64,000 bases of DNA from Nitrospirota bacterium (GTDB taxonomy: Bacteria; Nitrospirota; Leptospirillia; Leptospirillales; Leptospirillaceae): assembly GCA_021828375.1 (NCBI GenBank), contig JAKARS010000004.1:21920-85919 (forward strand), read 5' to 3'. Positions 3,377-27,328 of the stretch are shown here, piece by piece. The translations under genes and the position numbers were made by a program. Below the pieces are notes generated by a model. The model saw only the letters and a program-made list of their open reading frames with translations. It was not told the DNA's origin and searched no databases. Each line of letters starts with the position of its first letter. Position 1 is the first letter of the stretch.

Positions 3377-6300
3377 CGACAGGCGCTCCTTCGGTGAGCT
3401 GGATCTGATTGTCCACGATTCCGATGCGGAGGGAGCTCTCCGGCGTCAGGGTGGATGCCGCATTGTCGAGGGACTTCAGTGCGGGGAGAAGAAGGGACTG
3501 GACCTTTCTCTGAAGCTGGGGAAGGGTCACCAGAGTCGGGTCAAGTTGAAAGGCGATGAAGGCGGGGACCTCCGGGTCGATGTCGAGAACGCCTTTCATG
3601 GGGTGACCCTTGATGTAGGAGACCATGGTTTCGTAAACCGTTCTTCGGGCCATATCGATCAGGTCGGCATCGGTGTAGGTCGGGAACGGGACGATCAGGT
3701 CGAGAGTGTTCAGAAGCTCTCTCCCAAAGACGGGCAGGAAGGAGAGTCGGCCGTTCTTTTCTCCCAGTCTTTCGAGGATCATTGCCGCGCGGTTGCCGCC
3801 TTTCAATTCTTCCATTTCGTCCCCCGAAAAGAGACTTGTGGAAAGGATGAGGGTGCTTTTGGGAACTGCGAGCCGTTTCTTGCCATTGGAGATGGTCCCG
3901 TCGGTCACATATTCCATCAGGAAGTCCCAGGCCGAAGGATGAGCCTGTTCGATATTGTCCAGGAAAAGCACAGAATCGGGGCGTTCCTCGAGAACGGTAT
4001 GGATTCCCACCGGAAGCGGACTTTGGGCCGTTGACCCCAGGGGGCGCTGGAGGAGCATGCTGGCAAAGAGACGATCGGAATAGAGCCCCATATCCCGAAC
4101 CACCAGAGAGGGCTTTTCCGGGTCGAGATAGTGGGCCACCGCCCGGGCCGCCTCGAGCTTTCCTGTTCCCCGGGGCCCCGCAAAGAGAAAGGCCCCGAGA
4201 AGCCCGGAGCCGCCTTTCTTGATGCCATATTTCCCCGCCTCGAGAACCGAACGGACTTCCATCTGGATATCCTGTCTCCCCGGATAGCCCGGGAGGGCTT
4301 CAGCGAGAGGTTCAGGCATAAGAAGATGAAGGCTGCCGGCTTGCTCTTCGGCGCCTTCCGGGGCGGAGTCGCCTGAGGCGGCCTCCTCTGTGTGATCAAA
4401 CTCGGCAAAGTTGATTTTGTCGGGATCGATCCCTTCAAGGATTTTGCCCAAGGCAAACTCTTCAAGTTCAGAGAAAAGGGATCGGCCGAGCTCGGCCAAA
4501 TCGAGGACCGAGGCAAAACGTCGGGCAATAAAAGGATCAATCTTGTTGACATCATCGGCCCCGCCGATCAGCCAGATATTCTTGTCCTCATTGGCTTGTG
4601 AGATTTCCATGACCTTCTGGTTGTAGAGCTCTCCGTGATATCCATAATTCGAGAGCTGAACCTTGGGAAAAAGCTCTTCGACGGGATCAACAAAAATCGT
4701 TGACGGACGATGCTTCCTTGCCCGGAGGAGAAGGTTTCTGAATTCATTCCCGTCGAGGCGCTTCTCGTCCGAGGTCGTCATGAAGCTGTAGCTGACCAGC
4801 TCGGAGAGGCGCATGGCGATTTGGCGGCGAATGCTCCGATTGCGACCGATGATCAGGATGGATTCATGAGACTTCTTCTGGCGATTGGAGAAGAGCTCGC
4901 TGGTCCGGTGGATGATGAAGGGGGCCATCGTCTCGTCGGTGAGTCGGGCCCGGACCCTTTCCATGGGGCCCGCGGTCGGATCCTTCCAGTTTTGAGCCTT
5001 TCTTCGGATGGAAACATCGATGTCGAGCTGACGGAGAGACCGGCGAAGCTTTTGGGCATAGTCGGAGCTGTGGAGGACGACTTCCCGAATGTCCTCCGCC
5101 GTGAATCCTTCCATCAGGGCTGAAAGCTTTCCCAAGTCAAAGCCCTGAACCATCTCGACGGTGAGGAGGGGGACATTGCCCGGGAGAAGCTCATTCTTTT
5201 TGGCTTCCTCCATCAGAAATCGTCCCAAAAGAGTCTTTCTCATCTCGAAGTCCGGCATTGGAATGGGAATGATCCAGTTGATGATGGGGGGGGAGATGAA
5301 GAACTTGGGAAGGTCATCGGTCTTGTCGGCGGAGGCGATCAGAAGATGGGTCCTGTTTTTTGCCATTCTGGTCAGGAACGTCTGAACATTATGAAGACCT
5401 TGAGGATTTCCCTGAATTCCCCGGATGAAATTTCCGTAGTTCTCAATATAGATGATCAGGGGATTGAAGGGTTTGATCTTGAAAAGAAATCCCTTCCAAT
5501 GATTTTCAAAGGTCTGGGAGTCCACGGTCAGCAAGGAGTCGAGAGAGAGGTTGAAGAGGGGGCGCTTGTATTCGCCGGCCAAGGCGCGCGCCATGATCGT
5601 TCGGCCGACCGAAGAGGATCCTGTCAACAGGATGCCGTTGGGAGCGGACCCCACACCCTTTTGGGCATTGGTGACCTGATAGAGGATCTGGGCCATCTCC
5701 GATTTGATCTCGGGGTTTCCCGCAATTTGGCTAAAATCCTCCGAAGGAACAAGAAGATTGGTCTTGGTGGTCTGGTGTTCCTCGTCGGAGATGCCCATTC
5801 GAAACAGTGCGACGAGCGAGAGAATTGTTGCCCCCAGCAGCCATCCCGCCCCTGTGCCCATGCTGATGAGGGAGACCATTCCCGAGGTGTTGCTCACCGT
5901 GGCTCCGGAGATCAGAAAGAAGCCTCCATAGATAATCGCCGAGGTCCAGAAGTAGATCGCTTTGGGCGCCATCCGGACCGGATTGGGCTTGAAGATGATT
6001 TCTCCTTCGGCATTCTCCGAGTGAACCTGTGAGGGAATGAGAAGGAAGCAGAGGGAGGCAAGAAGCGTGACACCTCCAAGGATCCAGAGCGACAGGGAGA
6101 GCGACCCTGGATCAGACCGGAAGGCAAAGCCGGCCAGCATGGCCGAAAGCCCGATAAAGCTCCAGATGGCAACAAAGGAAAAGGAGGGGGGAGGAATTCC
6201 CCGGGAAGACTTTTTCTTCCCTTTTCGCGACAGATAGGGGCGTCCGAGATTGCGTCCGATCCCTCCAAGGACGATGGCGTGGAGAAGAAGGACCAGAAGG

Positions 6301-6419
6301 ATGACAAGGCTGGCCATGAGAGGCATCTGGGCATAGAGGGGATCGATCTCGTGGCGGAAGAAGAGCGCGGCGGAGACCCAGGAAAGCCCGACCAGCATGA
6401 TGATGATCGGCTGGATCAT
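3336..6419 (-). CDS. Membrane-anchored multi-module AAA+ protein (FtsH-like degenerate modules plus ClpB-like C-terminal ATPase)
   Basis: N-terminal ~6 hydrophobic helices. GILLTGSSSVGRTIMA (Walker A with K->R), LIIYIENYG; ESILIIGRNRSIRRQ...STIFVDPVEE; GAFLFAGPRGTGKLEAARAVA...SVLFLDNIEQAHPSAWDFLMEYVTDGTI (intact, ClpB-like). No HExxH. Confidence 0.8.
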   Translation of the reverse strand: MIQPIIIMLVGLSWVSAALFFRHEIDPLYAQMPLMASLVILLVLLLHAIVLGGIGRNLGRPYLSRKGKKKSSRGIPPPSFSFVAIWSFIGLSAMLAGFAFRSDPGSLSLSLWILGGVTLLASLCFLLIPSQVHSENAEGEIIFKPNPVRMAPKAIYFWTSAIIYGGFFLISGATVSNTSGMVSLISMGTGAGWLLGATILSLVALFRMGISDEEHQTTKTNLLVPSEDFSQIAGNPEIKSEMAQILYQVTNAQKGVGSAPNGILLTGSSSVGRTIMARALAGEYKRPLFNLSLDSLLTVDSQTFENHWKGFLFKIKPFNPLIIYIENYGNFIRGIQGNPQGLHNVQTFLTRMAKNRTHLLIASADKTDDLPKFFISPPIINWIIPIPMPDFEMRKTLLGRFLMEEAKKNELLPGNVPLLTVEMVQGFDLGKLSALMEGFTAEDIREVVLHSSDYAQKLRRSLRQLDIDVSIRRKAQNWKDPTAGPMERVRARLTDETMAPFIIHRTSELFSNRQKKSHESILIIGRNRSIRRQIAMRLSELVSYSFMTTSDEKRLDGNEFRNLLLRARKHRPSTIFVDPVEELFPKVQLSNYGYHGELYNQKVMEISQANEDKNIWLIGGADDVNKIDPFIARRFASVLDLAELGRSLFSELEEFALGKILEGIDPDKINFAEFDHTEEAASGDSAPEGAEEQAGSLHLLMPEPLAEALPGYPGRQDIQMEVRSVLEAGKYGIKKGGSGLLGAFLFAGPRGTGKLEAARAVAHYLDPEKPSLVVRDMGLYSDRLFASMLLQRPLGSTAQSPLPVGIHTVLEERPDSVLFLDNIEQAHPSAWDFLMEYVTDGTISNGKKRLAVPKSTLILSTSLFSGDEMEELKGGNRAAMILERLGEKNGRLSFLPVFGRELLNTLDLIVPFPTYTDADLIDMARRTVYETMVSYIKGHPMKGVLDIDPEVPAFIAFQLDPTLVTLPQLQRKVQSLLLPALKSLDNAASTLTPESSLRIGIVDNQIQLTEGAPVVTEKEPTVVTAGA

Positions 6420-8284
6420 CGGTCATCCTCCTTGGACGTTCCGGGAGACGGCCCTCCAGAAAGATGTTCGGAGATCCGCCGGGCCAGGGAGGCAGGAAGT
6501 CCCCCTTCGCGGGCGATTCTTTCGGGGCCCGCGGATTTGAGTTCTTCCACCGATCCGAAGGTCAGGAGCAGCTGTTTCTCTCGGGAGGGGCCTATGCCCG
6601 GGATATCCAGAAGTCGAGAGTGGGTCAAAGCTTCCTCCCGAAGCTTTCGGTGGTAGGTAATGGCAAACCGGTGGGCCTCGTCCCGGACCCTCATCAGCAG
6701 GTGCGTTGCCGGCCGGTGCGGGGGAAGAATCAGGGGGGAGTCGAACTCGGGAGAGACGAGTCGCTCGAGGTGACCAGTGCGGCTTCGCTCCTTGGCGATT
6801 CCCATGACCTGTTTGGGGAGTGGCGCTTTGCCGATCTGGTGGAGGGCGGCCAGTGCGGCCCTGAGCTGCGGCTCTCCGCCGTCGATGAGCAGAAGGTCGG
6901 GCAAGGGGCGCTCGTCGAAATGACGGGAGAGAACCTCGGCCAGCATCCGAAAGTCATCCTGCCCCCGGTCGTACCGGATCCGAAATCTTCGGTAGAGAGA
7001 CTTTTCAGGGAGACCATCGACAAAGACGACCAGGGAGGCGACGGGAAAGGAGTCTCCGGTATTCGAGATGTCCACGCAGCCAATGCTGGCGGGAGCTTGT
7101 TCAAGACCAAGCATCTCGCGAACCTCTTCGAGGGCCTGCCGAAGATCGGACTGGCTCTTTCCGCGTTCTTTCAGGGAGGCCCGGGCATTGTTTTGCGCGA
7201 GTTCGACCACGGTCTTCTTTTCTCCTCGCCGGGGGTGGGTAACGATGACCTTTCCACCTTTCTTTTCGGACATCCACTCGAGGTTCATGAGGGCTTCATG
7301 GGTCAGGGGATGGGAGAGAAGGATCTCCTCCGGAAGTGCCGTTGTCTCCTGGGAGTAATGCTGTTCGAGAAAGGCCATGAGAAGGTCGTCAGGGCTGTCC
7401 TGGTCGAAGTTTCTGATATGGACCTCCCGTCGCCCGGCGATACGTCCGTTTCGGACAGAGAGGAGTTCGATCTGCGCGGAGCCTTCGTCTGTCTCGACAG
7501 CGACGGCATCCACCGCGGAAGAAATCCGAAATTCGACGGTTTGACGCTCAAGGATGGTCCGAATGCTCTCGAGTCGGTGCTTGGCCTTGGCCGCTTTTTC
7601 GAACTCTAGATTTTTGGCATGGCGAACCATTTCATTGTGGAGAAGGGTCTCGAGGTCGCTGTTCTTGCCTTCAAGAAAGAGTCGGACGCCATCGGCCATC
7701 CTGCGGTATTCCTCCCGGGTGACAAGTCCGGCGCAGGGTCCCATGCAACGGCCGATCTGGTATTCAATGCAGGGGCGATCGATCGTTTTTCCCAGGTCGA
7801 GGCTGCATGTGGCCAGCGGAAAGATCCGGGAGATGGATCCGAGGGTTTCCCGGAGGGCGCCGGGATTGGCGTAGGGGCCAAAGGTCAGATCGGGGCTTCG
7901 GGACACCCTGCGTGTGACCGAGAGCCTCGGGAAGTCTTCAGACCAGGAAAAGCGGAGATAAGGGTAGGTCTTGTCATCGCGAAAGAGCACGTTGAAACGT
8001 GGCCGGTATTTCTTGATGAGGGTATTTTCGAGAATAAGGGCGTCGAGCTCGCTTCGGGTCACCAGTGTTTCAATGTTTGCAACCCGTTCGGTCATTTTCC
8101 GGATGCGTGGGGAGGTGGGGCGGGTCTTCTGGAAGTAGGAGCGTACCCGATCCTTGAGGCATTTGGATTTTCCGACATAGAGAACCTCTCCCTTGTCGTC
8201 CTTCATGAGGTAGACTCCCGGCGAGTCGGGCAAAAGCCGAAGCTTTTCCTCTAGCCGAAGAGGTGTCTGTTTGCCCTCGTCCAT
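6416..8284 (-). CDS. uvrC: Excinuclease ABC subunit UvrC
   Basis: GIY-YIG N-terminus LPDSPGVYLMKDDKGEVLYVGKSKCLKDRVRSYF; UvrBC and HhH regions. Confidence 0.97.
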   Translation of the reverse strand: MDEGKQTPLRLEEKLRLLPDSPGVYLMKDDKGEVLYVGKSKCLKDRVRSYFQKTRPTSPRIRKMTERVANIETLVTRSELDALILENTLIKKYRPRFNVLFRDDKTYPYLRFSWSEDFPRLSVTRRVSRSPDLTFGPYANPGALRETLGSISRIFPLATCSLDLGKTIDRPCIEYQIGRCMGPCAGLVTREEYRRMADGVRLFLEGKNSDLETLLHNEMVRHAKNLEFEKAAKAKHRLESIRTILERQTVEFRISSAVDAVAVETDEGSAQIELLSVRNGRIAGRREVHIRNFDQDSPDDLLMAFLEQHYSQETTALPEEILLSHPLTHEALMNLEWMSEKKGGKVIVTHPRRGEKKTVVELAQNNARASLKERGKSQSDLRQALEEVREMLGLEQAPASIGCVDISNTGDSFPVASLVVFVDGLPEKSLYRRFRIRYDRGQDDFRMLAEVLSRHFDERPLPDLLLIDGGEPQLRAALAALHQIGKAPLPKQVMGIAKERSRTGHLERLVSPEFDSPLILPPHRPATHLLMRVRDEAHRFAITYHRKLREEALTHSRLLDIPGIGPSREKQLLLTFGSVEELKSAGPERIAREGGLPASLARRISEHLSGGPSPGTSKEDDR

Positions 8285-8306
8285 GAAGGAACCCCCAAGT
8301 GAGCGG

Positions 8307-8336
8307 TTGTCGGATGATTGTCGCCTCTCCTATAAT
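8307..8336 (+). promoter_or_regulatory. Putative sigma70-type promoter for the 8454..8723 gene
   Basis: TTGTCG-18 nt-TATAAT upstream of SD taaggagg and ATG. Confidence 0.45.
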
Positions 8337-8453
8337 CAAAGAGAAGAAGACCCCAATCCTTTCCGGAGGAAACGGAAGAGACATTCATTCTTTGTCTCCA
8401 CCTGCTTTCTCATTGTATCATGGCATTTTTACAGGGTAAGGAGGCAACACACC

Positions 8454-8723
8454 ATGGCTTCCAATCAGGAGGATCCGCCACGGGAGACACACTCCGACGC
8501 GAATCATGAGGAGGACGATCCGGCCCCGCTTCTCTCTGAGCCCATCACCTCCAAGGAGTGGTGGGGGCTCGTCCGATACTTCTTGGGGGGGCTGGCCGTT
8601 GCCCTGTTCTTTTTCTTTATGATGGCCAACGGTCCCAAGGGAGTTCTCGCGGGAGGAACAGCTCTTCTGGCGGGTTTGCTGGTCTGGCTCGTCTACCGGT
8701 TCGTTTTTCGATCGGATGAGTGA
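8454..8723 (+). CDS. Small two-TM membrane protein of unknown function
   Basis: ATG at 8454 preceded by taaggagg; MASNQEDPPRETHSDANHEEDDPAPLL...WWGLVRYFLGGLAVALFFFFMMANGPKGVLAGGTALLAGLLVWLVYRF. Confidence 0.65.
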   Translation: MASNQEDPPRETHSDANHEEDDPAPLLSEPITSKEWWGLVRYFLGGLAVALFFFFMMANGPKGVLAGGTALLAGLLVWLVYRFVFRSDE

Positions 8724-8740
8724 CGGGGAAGAGAAGGCTT

Positions 8741-9655
8741 TCAGCTGGTTCGAAGGATCGACCGAACAAAGGTTGACGGGTCGAAGGGGAGAAGATCATC
8801 GGTCTTTTCTCCCACGCCAATGAATCGGACGGGGATCTGGTGGCGGCGCGCCAGCGCGATGACCACCCCGCCTCGGGACGTGCCGTCGAGCTTGGTGAGG
8901 ATGAGTCCTGAAACCGGCGCGATCTTGACGAATTCGTCAAGTTGGGAAAGGGCATTCTGGCCGATGGTTGCATCGAGGACGAGCCAGACCTCGACGGGAG
9001 AGTCCGGGGCCTCCCGGCTGATGATCGCCCCAATTTTCCTGAGCTCATTCATCAGGTTTTGCTTGTTCTGGAGCCTTCCCGCCGTGTCGATGATGGCCAT
9101 ATCGATCCCCCGGGCCCGGGCGGCCCTGACGGTATCGAAGGCGACGGAGGCCGGATCGGCTCCGGGTTTCTGATGGACAACGGGGACATCGAGGCGCTCT
9201 CCCCATTTTCGAAGCTGCTCGATCGCCGCCGCACGGAAGGTGTCGGCGGCCCCGAGGATGACGGAATTTCCTGCATCCCTGAATCGGGCGGCAAGCTTGC
9301 CGGCGGTTGTCGTCTTTCCGACGCCGTTGACTCCCACAAGGAGAACCACCATGGGGGATTTGCGGGGAGAGAACTCCTCCCAAGGGGTGGGGGAGGGGAA
9401 AATTTCTGTCAGGGACCGCTCAAGGTGGGCCAGGCTCTCTTCGGAGGTGGCTCCGGGATTCTTTTTTTCCCAGGCCTTCAGTTCCTCGACGATTTCCTTC
9501 GAGACTACGGGACCAACATCGGCAGTGATCAGGATTTCTTCGAGCTCCTGATAAAATCCGGGATCTCGCCGGTTGAAGACCGATTCGATCGACCGTGCGA
9601 CCTTGTCCCGGGTTTTTTGAAGCCCCTCCCTGATTTTGTCAAAAAATCCCATCAA
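8741..9655 (-). CDS. ftsY: Signal recognition particle receptor FtsY
   Basis: GVNGVGKTTTAGKLAARF, DTFRAAAIEQL, DTAGRLQNKQNLM, LTKLDGTSRGG. Confidence 0.97.
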   Translation of the reverse strand: MMGFFDKIREGLQKTRDKVARSIESVFNRRDPGFYQELEEILITADVGPVVSKEIVEELKAWEKKNPGATSEESLAHLERSLTEIFPSPTPWEEFSPRKSPMVVLLVGVNGVGKTTTAGKLAARFRDAGNSVILGAADTFRAAAIEQLRKWGERLDVPVVHQKPGADPASVAFDTVRAARARGIDMAIIDTAGRLQNKQNLMNELRKIGAIISREAPDSPVEVWLVLDATIGQNALSQLDEFVKIAPVSGLILTKLDGTSRGGVVIALARRHQIPVRFIGVGEKTDDLLPFDPSTFVRSILRTS

Positions 9656-10194
9656 GACATCCCCTTGCGGCCTTGTGCCACTCTTTTCCTGTCAGATGGA
9701 TCAATGTCCCCTGTCCCTTCCGGGATCTTTCCGGTGATTCCCTCGCCCCCTTGTCCTTCTTTTCGCCGGATGTGACGGGCGATCTTTTCTTCTTCGGCCT
9801 TCATGATCCGCTGATCTTCTTCCCCTCTCTCATGGTCAAATCCCAGAAGATGGCAGACTCCGTGGATCAGGAGATTTGAGAGCTCGTCCTCAGGAGAGAG
9901 ACCGGCTGTCATGGCCTGGCGATGGGCCCGAGGGACGGAGATCACGATCTCTCCGAGAAAACGAGGCATTCGAGGGGGAGAACCCGGGGGACCTTCAAAG
10001 GAGAGAACATCGGTGGTGGAAGCCTTTCCCCGATAGGTGCGGTTCAGTTCGCGCATCCTTTTGTCATTGACCAGGACAAGGGAGAGGTCACAGTGGTCTT
10101 GGCCCACGGCTTCCAGGGCGAGTCGGGCGTGTCGATGAAGTCGTTCGGTGTCCACGGGAAGGGCTCGTTGCAACGAGAGGATCTCAATCGACAT
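9652..10194 (-). CDS. ybeY: Endoribonuclease YbeY (rRNA maturation factor)
   Basis: HGVCHLLGFDHERGEE (HxxxHxxxxxH); LNRTYRGKASTTDVLSF; start chosen at MSIEIL rather than the ORF end at 10341. Confidence 0.93.
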   Translation of the reverse strand: MSIEILSLQRALPVDTERLHRHARLALEAVGQDHCDLSLVLVNDKRMRELNRTYRGKASTTDVLSFEGPPGSPPRMPRFLGEIVISVPRAHRQAMTAGLSPEDELSNLLIHGVCHLLGFDHERGEEDQRIMKAEEEKIARHIRRKEGQGGEGITGKIPEGTGDIDPSDRKRVAQGRKGMS

Positions 10195-10201
10195 GGGGGC
10201 C

Positions 10202-11227
10202 TCAGGATGTCTTGCGGGGAGGTCGTGACCGCTTTTCTGAGGCATTCTGGGTCCGGGGGGCGGGGGAGGGCTTGGAGGCTTCATAGCGTTCGTAGGCCTT
10301 GACGATTTCCATGACAAGGCGATGGCGAACAACATCGACATCGGAAAAGAAGGTGAAGGAGATGCCTTCGATTCCCTTCAGCACCTCCTGGGCTTCGAGC
10401 AATCCGCTGTAGCGATCCTGGGGGAGGTCGATCTGGGTTGTGTCCCCTGTGATGATGGCCTTGGAGTTGAAGCCGATGCGCGTGAGGAACATTTTCATCT
10501 GCTCGACGGTGGCATTCTGGGCCTCGTCCAAAATGACAAAGGAGTCGTTGAGGGTTCTCCCCCGCATGAAGGCCAACGGAGCGATCTCGATTTCCCGGCG
10601 CTCCATCATCCGGTTGACCTTTTCCACATCGATCATATCGAAGAGGGCGTCATAGAGGGGGCGCAGATAGGGGTTGATCTTTTCGGCAATGTCTCCCGGA
10701 AGGAATCCCAGCCGTTCTCCTGCCTCGACAGCCGGACGAACCAAGATAATCCGGCGGAACGAGCCCTTCAGGAGATGGTGGACGGCCAGGGCGACGGCCA
10801 AGTAGGTTTTGCCTGTTCCGGCCGGCCCGATTCCAAAGACAATATCCTTGGTCTTCATGGCACGGATGTACTCCAGCTGGTGGAGGGATTTGGGAAAGAT
10901 CACCCGCTTTTTGCTGTTGATCGGCACATACTCCGAAAGCAGATCCTTGAGAGAGATGTGGGGAGAGTTTCGGGAGACCGAGATGGCCTGTCGGATCTCT
11001 TCTTCGCGGATGGAGTAGCCTGCCGCCATCAGGGACGTCAGGTCATCGATGACGCGGGATCCCTGGCGAACGGCCTCTTCCTCTCCTACCATCGTCAACA
11101 CCGGTCCATTCACGGAAATCCGGAGCCCGAAAGCCTCTTCAAAGAGATGAATGTGCCGGTTCATCTCTCCAAGAAAGCTGGCGGTATCGAGATTCGGAGG
11201 GAGGTCGAGGTTCTGTCGGATGGCCAT
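10202..11227 (-). CDS. phoH: PhoH family ATPase
   Basis: FGIGPAGTGKTYLAVALAV, RPAVEAGERLGFLPGD, ILDEAQNAT, TRIGFNSKAIITGD. Confidence 0.93.
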   Translation of the reverse strand: MAIRQNLDLPPNLDTASFLGEMNRHIHLFEEAFGLRISVNGPVLTMVGEEEAVRQGSRVIDDLTSLMAAGYSIREEEIRQAISVSRNSPHISLKDLLSEYVPINSKKRVIFPKSLHQLEYIRAMKTKDIVFGIGPAGTGKTYLAVALAVHHLLKGSFRRIILVRPAVEAGERLGFLPGDIAEKINPYLRPLYDALFDMIDVEKVNRMMERREIEIAPLAFMRGRTLNDSFVILDEAQNATVEQMKMFLTRIGFNSKAIITGDTTQIDLPQDRYSGLLEAQEVLKGIEGISFTFFSDVDVVRHRLVMEIVKAYERYEASKPSPAPRTQNASEKRSRPPRKTS

Positions 11228-11769
11228 TATTTGTCTGTCACTCCGTTAGATTGTGCCAGAGGTTTCAGGATCTCCGCGGGAAGATGGGCCAGAAGGGTTC
11301 GGGAGAGTTCGTCGCTCCGGGTTTGATCCTTGATGACAAGAACCGGGACGGGGGAAATGTGGACAAGGGATCCGGGAAGAGAGCCGGTCATCAAACGGCT
11401 GATCAGGGGTCTCCCGTGAGAGACGACAAGAATCAGGTCGAATCTCAGGACCGCTGCCAGGGAGGCCAGGATTTTGTCGGCCTTTCCATGGTAGACCCCC
11501 GTTGAAATTCTGGTAGGCATGGATCCGAGGTCCCGGGCGATCTGGTTCAACCGCCTCAGGGCTTCCTCGGCCACAGGCAAGAGGTTGAGGCCGGCCATAG
11601 GAAGGTCGATGGGAATATCCTGGAGTGCTTCGAGAACAAAGGCCAGATGAATTTCTTCAGGAAAGATCGAATCCCCATGGGCTGCCAGCTTCCGGATTTC
11701 CTCGATGACATCGGCAGGAAAGGGCGAGAGATCTGATCCTATGAGAATGCGGCGATAGCCTGTGGGCAT
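11227..11769 (-). CDS. Universal stress protein (UspA)-like
   Basis: YRRILIGSDLSPF...DLILVVSHGRPLISRLMTGSLPGSLVHISPVPVLVIK. Confidence 0.7.
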   Translation of the reverse strand: MPTGYRRILIGSDLSPFPADVIEEIRKLAAHGDSIFPEEIHLAFVLEALQDIPIDLPMAGLNLLPVAEEALRRLNQIARDLGSMPTRISTGVYHGKADKILASLAAVLRFDLILVVSHGRPLISRLMTGSLPGSLVHISPVPVLVIKDQTRSDELSRTLLAHLPAEILKPLAQSNGVTDK

Positions 11770-11934
11770 AAAGAATTCAATCCTCAGAGATTTTTTGCAG
11801 TGAAAATCGAAGAAGACATGAACAAGGTATCACATGGAATTCAAGGTGAAACTTCAAGAGAAAGTCTCAAGCCTAACCTAATTTTAATCCTACCACAGGG
11901 TCCCGTTGAAAACATCTTGACGAGCGATCAGCTC

Positions 11935-12822
11935 TTAACGCTTTTCATCGAGCCCGGCCCGCTCGTAGTGAGAAAGAACGATGGCTGACCAGTCGAGAGG
12001 CTGACGTCCTCGGGCCAGGCCGGCCAAAAGGGAGTCCCGGGCGATGGAGGCCAACGGGAGCGGCACGCGAAGAGACTCGGCCGCCTCAAGAATGAGGTGC
12101 AGATCCTTGAGCCCCAGATCCATCGTAAACCCCGCCTTGTCATAACGTTTCTCTGCCATGATCTTTCCATAGTTTTCATAGAGAGGAGAGCGAAAAAGGG
12201 AGTCATTGAGAATTTCGAGAAAGAGGGCAGGGTCAACGCCAGCTCGGCGAACGAGGGCAAAGGACTCGCCAAGAGCCTCGAGTGCCGCAGCAATCATGAA
12301 ATTTCCCGAGAGCTTCACGAGATTGGCCACGGAAGGGGAGTCTCCCAATCGGAAAACTTTGGCCCCCAAGGTTTCAAGAATGGGCATGACCGAGGCGACA
12401 GAGTCCGGATCTCCGGCACAAAGAACGCGAAGCCGACCTTCGACAACGGCGTCGGGGCGCCCGAAGACGGGGGCCGAAACAAAACCTTGTCCCCTTTTTC
12501 TGTGTTCAGCGTCAATCTTTCTGGAAAGCTCGACGCTGATGGTTGACAGCGATAAATGAACCGAGCCTTCCGGTAGGGCATCCAGAACCCCCGCCCCGTA
12601 TAGAAGAGACTCGAGGGCCTCGTCATTTGAAAGGATGGTGGCAAAGATGCTGGCTTCTTTTGCCGCCTCTGCCGGAGAGGCGGCCCACAGGGCTCCTTTT
12701 TCAAGAAGGGGGAGCGCTTTTTCTTTTGTCCGATTTGTCACCGTCAAAGGGTACGGCCTGGCAAGGAGTCTTTCTGCCATGGGAAATCCCATATTTCCAA
12801 GGCCTGCAAGGGCAATTTTCAT
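11935..12822 (-). CDS. NAD(P)-dependent oxidoreductase, 3-hydroxyisobutyrate dehydrogenase / 6PGDH-like
   Basis: KIALAGLGNMGFPMAERLL; KLSGNFMIAAALEALGESFAL. Confidence 0.85.
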   Translation of the reverse strand: MKIALAGLGNMGFPMAERLLARPYPLTVTNRTKEKALPLLEKGALWAASPAEAAKEASIFATILSNDEALESLLYGAGVLDALPEGSVHLSLSTISVELSRKIDAEHRKRGQGFVSAPVFGRPDAVVEGRLRVLCAGDPDSVASVMPILETLGAKVFRLGDSPSVANLVKLSGNFMIAAALEALGESFALVRRAGVDPALFLEILNDSLFRSPLYENYGKIMAEKRYDKAGFTMDLGLKDLHLILEAAESLRVPLPLASIARDSLLAGLARGRQPLDWSAIVLSHYERAGLDEKR

Positions 12823-23388: not shown

Positions 23389-25518
23389 ATGAAGCCAGTT
23401 ACAGTTGAAGTTGCCGTCGGAGGAAAGACGGTCAGGATCGAGACAGGACGTATGGCTCGCCAGGCCGACGGAGCCGCGGTTCTCTGGGTCGAGGGGACAG
23501 TGATTATCGCCACAGCTGTTGCGGCAAAGACCGTCAAGCCGGGAACCGATTTTCTTCCTCTGACAGTGGACTACCAGGAGCGGGCCTATGCCGCGGGAAA
23601 AATCCCGGGAGGATTCTTCAAGAGAGAAGGAAAGCCGTCTGAGCGAGAGATATTGAACAGCCGCCTCGTCGACCGTCCTCTGCGTCCGCTCTTTCCTGAA
23701 GGGTTCTACTACGACACCCAAGTGATCGCCTCCGTGGTCTCCGCAGACCGGAGCGGGGTCACTGATGTGATGGCCGTTGTGGCGGCATCCACTGCGTTGA
23801 CCATTTCCGACATTCCTTTTAATGATCCTCTTGGCGCTGTTCGTGTGGGCTATGTGAATGGCCAGTTTGTGATCAACCCCGACATTGAGGCCCAGGAGCA
23901 ATCCAGCCTCGATCTCGTGGTGGCAGGAACGGCTGATGCCATCATGATGGTGGAAGGCAAGGCGGACGAGGTTTCCGAAGAGCTCTTCCTCGAGGCGATC
24001 CGGACAGCCCACGCTGCCTGCCAGCCGATCATTGCCGCCCAGCGCGAACTTCAGCAGAAAATTGGAAAGGCCAAGCGGGCTCTTCCCAAAGTTCCCGTGC
24101 GTCCCGAGCTCATGGAGAAAATCCGATCAGGGGGGCGTGATGCCCTTTCGGGAATCCTTGTTGTTTCGGACAAGAAGGTTCGGGAGGAGAAAACTGCCGA
24201 GATTCGGAGCTCTCTTGCCAAGGAGCTATTTCCCGAAGGATTTGCCGACCCCATGCAGGAAAAGGAGTTCTCCAACGGATTCCATGAGCTCGAGCGAGAG
24301 CTCCTGCGTGCCATGGTTCTCGATCGCGGGATCCGTGCCGATGGTCGCTCCACGACGGAGATCCGTCCCATCACAATCGAGGTAGGAATCCTTCCCCGAA
24401 CCCATGGATCGGCCCTCTTTACCCGAGGAGAGACCCAGAGCCTTTCCGTGGCGACTCTCGGAACTTCCGATGACGAACAACGGATCGACTCCCTGGAGGG
24501 AGAATCCCACAAGCGGTTCATGCTTCACTATAACTTTCCGGCCTTCTCGGTTGGGGAAGTCAAGCCGATGCGGGGGCCGGGGCGTCGGGAGATTGGCCAT
24601 GGAAATCTTGCAGAGAGAGCCCTCATCCCGGTTCTGCCGTCGAAGGACGACTTTCCCTATTCGATCCGGCTTGTGTCCGACATTCTGGAATCGAATGGTT
24701 CGACCTCCATGGCCACCGTCTGTGGCGGAACTCTGGCCATGATGGATGCCGGCATTCCCATCAAGGCCCCCGTCGCCGGAATCGCCATGGGTCTGATCAA
24801 GGAAGGAGACAGAATCGCAATTCTGTCAGATATTCTGGGGATCGAGGATCATCTTGGTGATATGGATTTCAAGGTGACCGGAACGGATGTCGGTGTCACT
24901 GCGGTTCAGATGGACATCAAGATCAAGGGCATTACCCTTGAGATCATGAAGAAATCTCTCGAACAGGCCCGTGTCGGTCGGATTCACATCATGGGAAAGA
25001 TGAAGGAGGCCTTGCCGTCCGTTCGCTCCCAGATGTCTCCCTATGCGCCTCGCATCATGACCATCCAGATCAAGCAAGACAAAATCAGGGAGGTCATTGG
25101 GCCCGGCGGAAAGATGATTCGCAGTATCACCGAACGGACGGGTGCCAAGATCGAAATCGAGGATTCTGGTGTGATCCATGTGGCCTCCGCCGATGAGGAA
25201 GCCGCAAAGAAGGCCATCGAAATCATTCATCAGATCGTTGCCGAGGCGGAAGTGGGCAAGATCTATCTTGGCAAGGTCAAGACCGTTGCCGAATATGGGG
25301 CTTTTGTGGAAATCATGCCTGGCACCACCGGTCTTTGCCATGTATCCCAACTTGAACCCCGTCGCGTCGAGAAGGTGACCGATGTGGTCAACGAGGGGGA
25401 CGAGATTGTCGTGAAGGTTCTGGAAGTGGACCGTCAGGGAAAAATTCGCCTTTCCCGGAAGGAAGCCATCGCCGAGGAAGGGGAGGGACGCGAAACGCGG
25501 GCCTCTGCCACCCACTAG
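23389..25518 (+). CDS. pnp: Polyribonucleotide nucleotidyltransferase
   Basis: RPLRPLFPEGFYYDTQVIASVVS; KH domain IREVIGPGGKMIRSITERTGAKIEIED; S1 domain. Confidence 0.98.
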   Translation: MKPVTVEVAVGGKTVRIETGRMARQADGAAVLWVEGTVIIATAVAAKTVKPGTDFLPLTVDYQERAYAAGKIPGGFFKREGKPSEREILNSRLVDRPLRPLFPEGFYYDTQVIASVVSADRSGVTDVMAVVAASTALTISDIPFNDPLGAVRVGYVNGQFVINPDIEAQEQSSLDLVVAGTADAIMMVEGKADEVSEELFLEAIRTAHAACQPIIAAQRELQQKIGKAKRALPKVPVRPELMEKIRSGGRDALSGILVVSDKKVREEKTAEIRSSLAKELFPEGFADPMQEKEFSNGFHELERELLRAMVLDRGIRADGRSTTEIRPITIEVGILPRTHGSALFTRGETQSLSVATLGTSDDEQRIDSLEGESHKRFMLHYNFPAFSVGEVKPMRGPGRREIGHGNLAERALIPVLPSKDDFPYSIRLVSDILESNGSTSMATVCGGTLAMMDAGIPIKAPVAGIAMGLIKEGDRIAILSDILGIEDHLGDMDFKVTGTDVGVTAVQMDIKIKGITLEIMKKSLEQARVGRIHIMGKMKEALPSVRSQMSPYAPRIMTIQIKQDKIREVIGPGGKMIRSITERTGAKIEIEDSGVIHVASADEEAAKKAIEIIHQIVAEAEVGKIYLGKVKTVAEYGAFVEIMPGTTGLCHVSQLEPRRVEKVTDVVNEGDEIVVKVLEVDRQGKIRLSRKEAIAEEGEGRETRASATH

Positions 25519-25537: not shown

Positions 25538-25566
25538 TTGTTTTTTTGAATGGGGTTTGCCATAAT
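25538..25566 (+). promoter_or_regulatory. Putative sigma70-type promoter of the micro-gene 25726..25848
   Basis: TTGTTT (25538-25543)-17 nt-CATAAT (25561-25566). Confidence 0.4.
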
Positions 25567-25592
25567 GCTTCCTGTCTTATCAGTCTGGTGAT

Positions 25593-25694
25593 TTGGCAGG
25601 GGATGTGGATCCGCAAGGATCTTTAGCCAAGGCCTGCCCCCCAAAGGGAAAGGGCAGGAGTCATTCGCATTCGTCCCAGATTTTTTCTGGGACG
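25593..25694 (+). promoter_or_regulatory. Structured 5' leader with mutually exclusive helices
   Basis: GGCAGG (25595-25600)/CCTGCC (25633-25638) enclosing GGATCC-GCAA-GGATCT (25607-25622), competing with CCTGCCC (25633-25639)/GGGCAGG (25652-25658); then CGTCCCAGA-ttttt-TCTGGGACG (25672-25694). Confidence 0.5.
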
Positions 25695-25725
25695 GGCGCG
25701 AGACAATCATCGAGGAGGTCTGTCA

Positions 25726-25848
25726 ATGGATGTGAACAAAGGTGCTACAGGGCTTGTGGTCGTGGCCATCATCATGGCGGTTGTCTGGGGCGGACTCTCT
25801 ATGTATGTCGGGGTGAATCCCTTCTTCCTTCCGACCGGAGTTCATTAA
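25726..25848 (+). CDS. 40-aa single-TM micro-protein (possible cytochrome oxidase subunit IIa-like)
   Basis: AGGAGG (25713-25718) 7 nt before ATG; MDVNKGATGLVVVAIIMAVVWGGLSMYVGVNPFFLPTGVH; followed by a strong terminator. Confidence 0.65.
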   Translation: MDVNKGATGLVVVAIIMAVVWGGLSMYVGVNPFFLPTGVH

Positions 25849-25926
25849 TCCCCGAGACGTTTGCTTTGTCTTCCGGAGTTCCCTCCGGATATCTTTTTCG
25901 GCCTTTATTCTTATCTTCCTTTGCAG

Positions 25927-25957
25927 GGTGCCTGCCTTCGGGTGGGCACCTTTTTTT
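25927..25957 (+). terminator. Rho-independent terminator with UUCG tetraloop
   Basis: GGTGCCTGCC-TTCG-GGTGGGCACC (10 bp including two G-U pairs) followed by TTTTTTT. Confidence 0.92.
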
Positions 25958-26092: not shown

Positions 26093-27328
26093 ATGCCCTA
26101 CATAAAGCACACTCTCTCAAATGGGCTTGCCGTTTACAGCGATCCCGTCACCTCCTCCCGCTCAGCCGCCATTGGTGTCTGGGTGCGGGCCGGCTCCCGT
26201 TACGAGTCTCCCAAGGAGGCCGGTATGACCCATTTTCTGGAGCACATGTGCTTTAAGGGGACCCCCTCCCGCAATGCCCAGGAGATTGCCAACGAGATGG
26301 ACTTCCTGGGAGGGGAGATGAACGCCTTTACCTCCCAGGAGATGACCTGCTTCTATGCCCATCTTCTGACAGAAAATGTCTCCCGGGCCGCCCTTCTCCT
26401 GGGGGATCTCCTCACCCGATCAACCTTTGATGGAGAGGAGCTCGATCGGGAGAGGGGGGTTGTGATCGAGGAGATTGCAGAGTCCCGCGACGACCCGGAC
26501 GATCTTGTGACCCAGAACCTCTATGAGGCCCACTTTGGGGCCCATCCCCTGTCCCGCCCGATTCTGGGAACGGAAGAGTCCCTCTCCTCTTTCTCCCGCG
26601 AGGATGTTCAGAGTTACTTCCGGCGGAACTACCATTCCGGTTCGATGTTTGTGACCGTTTCCGGTCGATTTTCCTGGCCCTCCCTCCGGGAGTCCCTCGA
26701 GCAGGCCTTCTCCGATCTTCCCTTGGCACCTAGCCAAAGGACGGAAGACGGATCCGCGTTTCTCCCGGCCTATGGAAAGACGCAAAAGGAGAAAAAGCTG
26801 GAGCAGGTCCATGTGGCCATCGGGATGCCGGGCCTTCCTGTGGCCCACCCGGATCAGACGCTCCTTCGTCTTTTGAATGTCCATCTTGGGGGAGGAATGA
26901 GCTCGCGTCTTTTCCAGGAGGTTCGGGAGAAGAGAGGGCTCGCCTATTCGGTCTATTCCACCGGGCAATCCTTTGCCGATGGGGGGCTGGTCAGGATTTC
27001 GGCCTCGACGCGTCCCTCCAAGAAGCGGGAGCTTTTGGAGATTCTCGGAGAGGAAATTGCCCGCCTTGAATCGGTTCCCTTGACGGACGAGGAGCTCTCC
27101 CGAGCGAAGAATCAGGTGAAATCCTCACTTCTTTTGGGGCTTGAGTCCATTGGAACCCGGATGAACAAGATGGGCCGGGATATCCTTTATTGGGGGGAAG
27201 AGGTTCCGGTGGAAACCATTGAGGCGAGGATCGATTCCGCCACCCCGGAGGATATCCTTCGTCTGGCGCGGGCGCAGGGCTTTTCCGCGTCCCGTTCCCT
27301 TTCCGTTCTGGGTCCGGAGAAGGAATAA
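26093..27328 (+). CDS. M16 family zinc metallopeptidase
   Basis: HFLEHMCFKGT (HxxEH), GGEMNAFTSQEMTCFYAHLL, GMSSRLFQEVREKRGLAYSVYS. Confidence 0.95.
   Translation: MPYIKHTLSNGLAVYSDPVTSSRSAAIGVWVRAGSRYESPKEAGMTHFLEHMCFKGTPSRNAQEIANEMDFLGGEMNAFTSQEMTCFYAHLLTENVSRAALLLGDLLTRSTFDGEELDRERGVVIEEIAESRDDPDDLVTQNLYEAHFGAHPLSRPILGTEESLSSFSREDVQSYFRRNYHSGSMFVTVSGRFSWPSLRESLEQAFSDLPLAPSQRTEDGSAFLPAYGKTQKEKKLEQVHVAIGMPGLPVAHPDQTLLRLLNVHLGGGMSSRLFQEVREKRGLAYSVYSTGQSFADGGLVRISASTRPSKKRELLEILGEEIARLESVPLTDEELSRAKNQVKSSLLLGLESIGTRMNKMGRDILYWGEEVPVETIEARIDSATPEDILRLARAQGFSASRSLSVLGPEKE

Follow-up and report, generated by a model that had tools for sequence, protein, structure and literature searches.

A conserved 40-residue single-helix membrane protein encoded behind pnp in Leptospirillum-type Nitrospirota

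Tiny proteins with a single transmembrane (TM) segment have precedents among oxidase subunits. The cbb3 oxidase of Pseudomonas stutzeri contains CcoM, a subunit of 36 aa (PMC10433244). CydX is the small subunit of cytochrome bd; rare homologues are encoded apart from cydAB, and homologues were reported in L. ferrooxidans C2-3 and L. ferriphilum ML-04 (PMC4325964). CoxIIa (PF08113) is subunit IIa of the ba3 oxidase, e.g. chain C of the Thermus thermophilus structure 1xme. Only cbb3 and bd oxidases are reported for Leptospirillum, with no recognised low-affinity oxidase (PMC6695575).

The window analysed here is the whole stretch of 64,000 nucleotides from a Leptospirillaceae genome. A first-pass annotation of this stretch placed between pnp and an M16 peptidase gene a complete small gene, missed by the ORF track, whose product was likened to CoxIIa and proposed to be either an orphan subunit or a new small membrane protein. 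The papers searched, which concerned CcoM, subunit IIa and, for Leptospirillum, its oxidases, polynucleotide phosphorylase and small membrane proteins, contained no account of this protein.

Conservation and distribution of the small gene

The gene occupies positions 25726-25848 (coordinates of the window, + strand throughout), from the ATG at 25726 to the TAA at 25846-25848, and encodes the 40-aa sequence MDVNKGATGLVVVAIIMAVVWGGLSMYVGVNPFFLPTGVH. Using tblastn and profile searches we identified one clear orthologue per genome in all 21 genomes of the family, which belong to five genera. The gene is single copy and found at one locus, directly 3' of pnp (polynucleotide phosphorylase, 23389-25518), and is vertically stable there. 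The next gene encodes an M16 peptidase (26093-27328), identified by tblastn at this place in 18 of the 21 genomes; in two of the three exceptions the small gene is near a contig end, and in G015 another sequence occupies the place. Within the window's genus the in-frame pS is 0.56 and pN 0.063, i.e. a pN/pS of 0.11, compared to 1.6 and 2.5 in the two alternative frames, and variable sites concern 33 of 39 third positions versus 7 of 39 second positions. All five genera preserve the ATG together with a G-rich Shine-Dalgarno (SD) sequence. On these sequence comparisons the small ORF is under strong purifying selection, and a genuine protein-coding gene is confirmed, with conservation far above chance.

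Outside the family the region has a simpler structure. In 20 of 22 outgroup Nitrospirota genomes pnp is followed directly by the M16 gene, its ancestral neighbour, which starts 0-192 nt further on without an intervening ORF of 28-70 aa (in the remaining two, pnp was outside the flank taken). The small gene is thus a newcomer to an old operon: in the ancestor of the family it either arose between pnp and the M16 gene or was inserted there, and every member has retained it. Profile searches covered 396 genomes of the phylum and detected no orthologue in the roughly 375 other Nitrospirota. A scan of 85,462 species (one genome each) returned 19 loci, all corresponding to this small gene and none outside the family, with the restriction that it relies on short peptide patterns, which a diverged relative could escape. 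Beyond the family, the profile gave weak matches (E 0.001-0.5) over short stretches, the strongest of which fall within long ORFs; we attribute them to chance. Among the genomes searched, the gene is therefore restricted, as judged by sequence similarity, to one family of Leptospirillum-type Nitrospirota.

Expression signals around the gene

The putative promoter (25538-25566) is composed of a -35 element TTGTTT (25538-25543), a 17-nt spacer and an extended -10 element TGC-CATAAT (25558-25566), in which CATAAT lies at 25561-25566 with TGC just 5' of it; the two hexamers and their spacing are as the first-pass annotation described them, and the TGC is an addition to it. Across the window's genus the -10 is found in 14 of 14 species and the -35 in 13, the spacer is constantly 17 nt, and the hexamers are preserved though the flanking bases are scrambled and the leader length varies. 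A generic sigma-70 consensus scan leaves it unflagged; the evidence that points to a promoter of the small gene is this conservation. Since the motif is present only once in its own genome, even with up to 3 mismatches allowed, a promoter regulon was rejected.

The 5' leader (25567-25712) measures about 145-160 nt in the genus comparison and is variable in both sequence and length. Just upstream of the SD it contains a hairpin (25660-25704) of -28 kcal/mol in the window species, which also folds in close relatives (L002, L003 and L010); folding differs in other species. The leader has no Rfam match, and among genus members its consensus fold is weakly supported and covariation not established, so that a known structured RNA was rejected; of the structured leader initially described, the hairpin stands, and a conserved structure is not established. 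The SD, AGGAGG at 25713-25718, is perfect and located 7 nt before the ATG, as previously noted, and is invariant in 14 of 14 genus members.

In the four other genera such a promoter is absent, and the small ORF starts about 35 nt past the pnp stop. As this gap leaves no room for a promoter of this kind, the small gene is likely read from the pnp transcript there, and is probably co-transcribed with pnp; the self-contained transcription unit first proposed is thus a property of the window's genus. This organization bears on another explanation, in which the small protein is a membrane tether or regulator tied to pnp, anchoring for example PNPase or an RNA-decay complex. Such a role would fit the probable co-transcription and the position directly behind pnp in all 21 genomes, including G015, in which the M16 gene has ceased to be the following one. 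However, the separate promoter in the window's genus loosens the link, a gene order kept by chance across one family is ordinary, and a protein inserted N-in would offer only about 7 cytoplasmic residues for PNPase binding. We regard this tether as distinctly improbable.

Terminators are found 3' of the small ORF in all five genera. In the window a first terminator-like element (25872-25898), consisting of a hairpin at 25872-25889 and a T-rich tail, is the nearer to the stop codon and had been overlooked; most genus members have it in the equivalent position, and some of the changes in its stem are two-sided. The second terminator (25927-25957) is strong and corresponds to the annotated 10-bp UUCG hairpin followed by T7, with a different stem in other species. 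Between them lies a pyrimidine-rich tract (25899-25924) whose sequence is conserved across the genus, and a comparable tract precedes the terminator in two loci of other genera (L047 and L049). One genome (G008, locus L008) has about 240 extra nt between the first and second terminators, the ORF being intact. An element of about 120 nt at 1190-1310 of L008 is 79% identical to 7353-7472 of L057 (G015): in one species it lies upstream of the small gene, in the other downstream and inverted, and neither locus has an Rfam match.

A short hydrophobic product behind a long leader also recalls type I toxins, and one orthologue gave a sub-threshold match to Hok (E 0.3, 11.2 bits for a cut-off of 89). 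A toxin-like peptide is nevertheless very improbable, given that every genome of the family has a single copy, vertically fixed at the same locus, and that in-frame purifying selection is strong. No patchy, multicopy or mobile distribution was seen in the 21 genomes. The protein had no match in the plasmids and phages searched and none in PADLOC; with nothing of note in PHROGs either and Hok below cut-off, a toxin, phage or defence origin was rejected.

The protein compared with known small subunits

Alignment of the 21 orthologues gave 19 invariant residues out of 40, clustered in a short N-terminus (MDxNKGA), in the TM helix (about residues 8-28) and in the tail (YVGx(D/N)PF(F/Y)LPxG). AlphaFold2 predicts one helix, residues 3-28, with a mean pLDDT of 81 and a less certain tail. 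Alignment and model together describe a protein made of one predicted TM helix and a short, highly conserved tail, in support of the single-TM product first annotated. The lysine at position 5 suggests that insertion is probably N-in/C-out. Pfam and NCBIfam yielded nothing above the cut-off, and PHROGs, PADLOC and PDB nothing noteworthy; no PDB chain matches the family profile, and a PDB fold search was negative, as expected for a lone helix. Of the two proposals of the first-pass annotation, the second, a new small membrane protein, is the one borne out.

The likeness to CoxIIa did not hold. The two proteins share a length of 34-40 aa, one helix, KGA near the N-terminus and aromatics at the C-terminal end of the helix, where a late W is followed by Y and FF. 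Unlike CoxIIa, the small protein has a C-terminal motif of its own and matches no profile: PF08113 recognized none of the 21 orthologues and nothing in the window's own genome, whereas it recovers the Thermus IIa at 4e-21. BLASTP against the Thermus IIa gave 13.5 bits (27% over 26 aa), and 3-16% of segment-preserving shuffles attained the observed alignment score (P 0.03-0.16); on these measures the similarity is at chance level. One full-length COX1, that of the own genome and not that of G015, was compared with solved structures; it came out nearest to cbb3 CcoN and is not ba3-type. The COX1 search, for an own genome 72% complete, yielded cbb3-type full-length proteins and COX1 fragments. 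Together with the cbb3 and bd oxidases reported for Leptospirillum (PMC6695575), these results largely refute an orphan CoxIIa, a subunit IIa of a ba3-type oxidase, which we now find hardly credible. As had been observed initially, no oxidase genes are adjacent in the window; nor are other respiratory genes.

CydX is similar in size and in its single TM. The small gene differs from it in not being beside cydAB, its neighbours being pnp upstream (21 of 21) and M16 downstream, and the genus has a reported CydX of its own (PMC4325964). No orthologue among the 21 matched the CydX Pfam family, and CydX identity was rejected on this result and on the published CydX. With CcoM the likeness is one of description: a tiny protein in a lineage using cbb3-type oxidases.

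Proposed function and family oxidases

The small protein lacks catalytic residues and close to half of its positions are invariant, which makes docking on a larger integral membrane complex the most likely role. In the reading that we favour, though at somewhat less than even confidence, the helix and tail would dock against such a complex, and the protein would act as an accessory subunit or as an assembly/stability factor, as CydX, CcoM or CoxIIa do. Favouring this model are the frame conserved in all 21 genomes under strong purifying selection, the conserved promoter and SD, the single helix with its conserved tail, and a single copy stable beside pnp, unlike a mobile toxin. Against it are the absence of homology to any known subunit family in Pfam, NCBIfam, PDB, PHROGs and PADLOC searches and the lack of adjacent respiratory genes. 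The likeliest partner may be a respiratory-chain complex of this iron-oxidising lineage, a tentative choice made because CydX, CcoM and CoxIIa are the best-known proteins of this shape. Size and topology would also fit an MgtS/AcrZ/KdpF-like regulator of a membrane transporter or protease, perhaps under acid or metal stress, and restriction to one clade is frequent among stress regulators. Here again there is no family match and no transporter is adjacent, and the conservation is above what we would expect of such regulators; we consider a regulator of this type rather unlikely.

Concerning the accessory-subunit reading, one specific form would make the small protein an unlinked, lineage-specific subunit of the family's unusual terminal oxidase in which two COX1 fragments replace a full COX1; this is a long shot. 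The corresponding oxidase-like cluster was observed in L092 (G015, about 5970-12470), L093 (G012), L056 (G000 contig C42) and contig C69 of G002. It contains two tandem proteins that both match only about positions 306-434 of the COX1 profile, with a sulfatase-modifying-factor domain protein between them, along with CcoO-like, FixP_N-like, cytochrome c and 4Fe-4S (FixG/CcoG-like) genes. Relatives of the cluster are present in family f2 (G021, G030, G038 and G046), where the small ORF was not found, and a phyletic link between the small gene and the cluster was rejected for that reason. Two separate full-length CcoN-like genes were also observed in G000, in L055 (contig C15) and L054 (contig C12); next after the C15 gene comes a CbbQ/NorQ-type AAA gene, and no CcoO gene was seen beside either.

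Universal, single copy and strongly conserved in one family, and not found in the rest of the phylum, the small protein is a clear example of a small membrane protein that defines a clade. Leptospirillum, a genus noted for its life on iron under acidic conditions, matters for bioleaching and acid mine drainage, and its respiratory chain has been resolved only in part. If the small protein is an unrecognised respiratory subunit, this would be directly testable; and if the reading based on the COX1-fragment oxidase were true, it would be part of the respiratory adaptation of Leptospirillum-type iron oxidisers.
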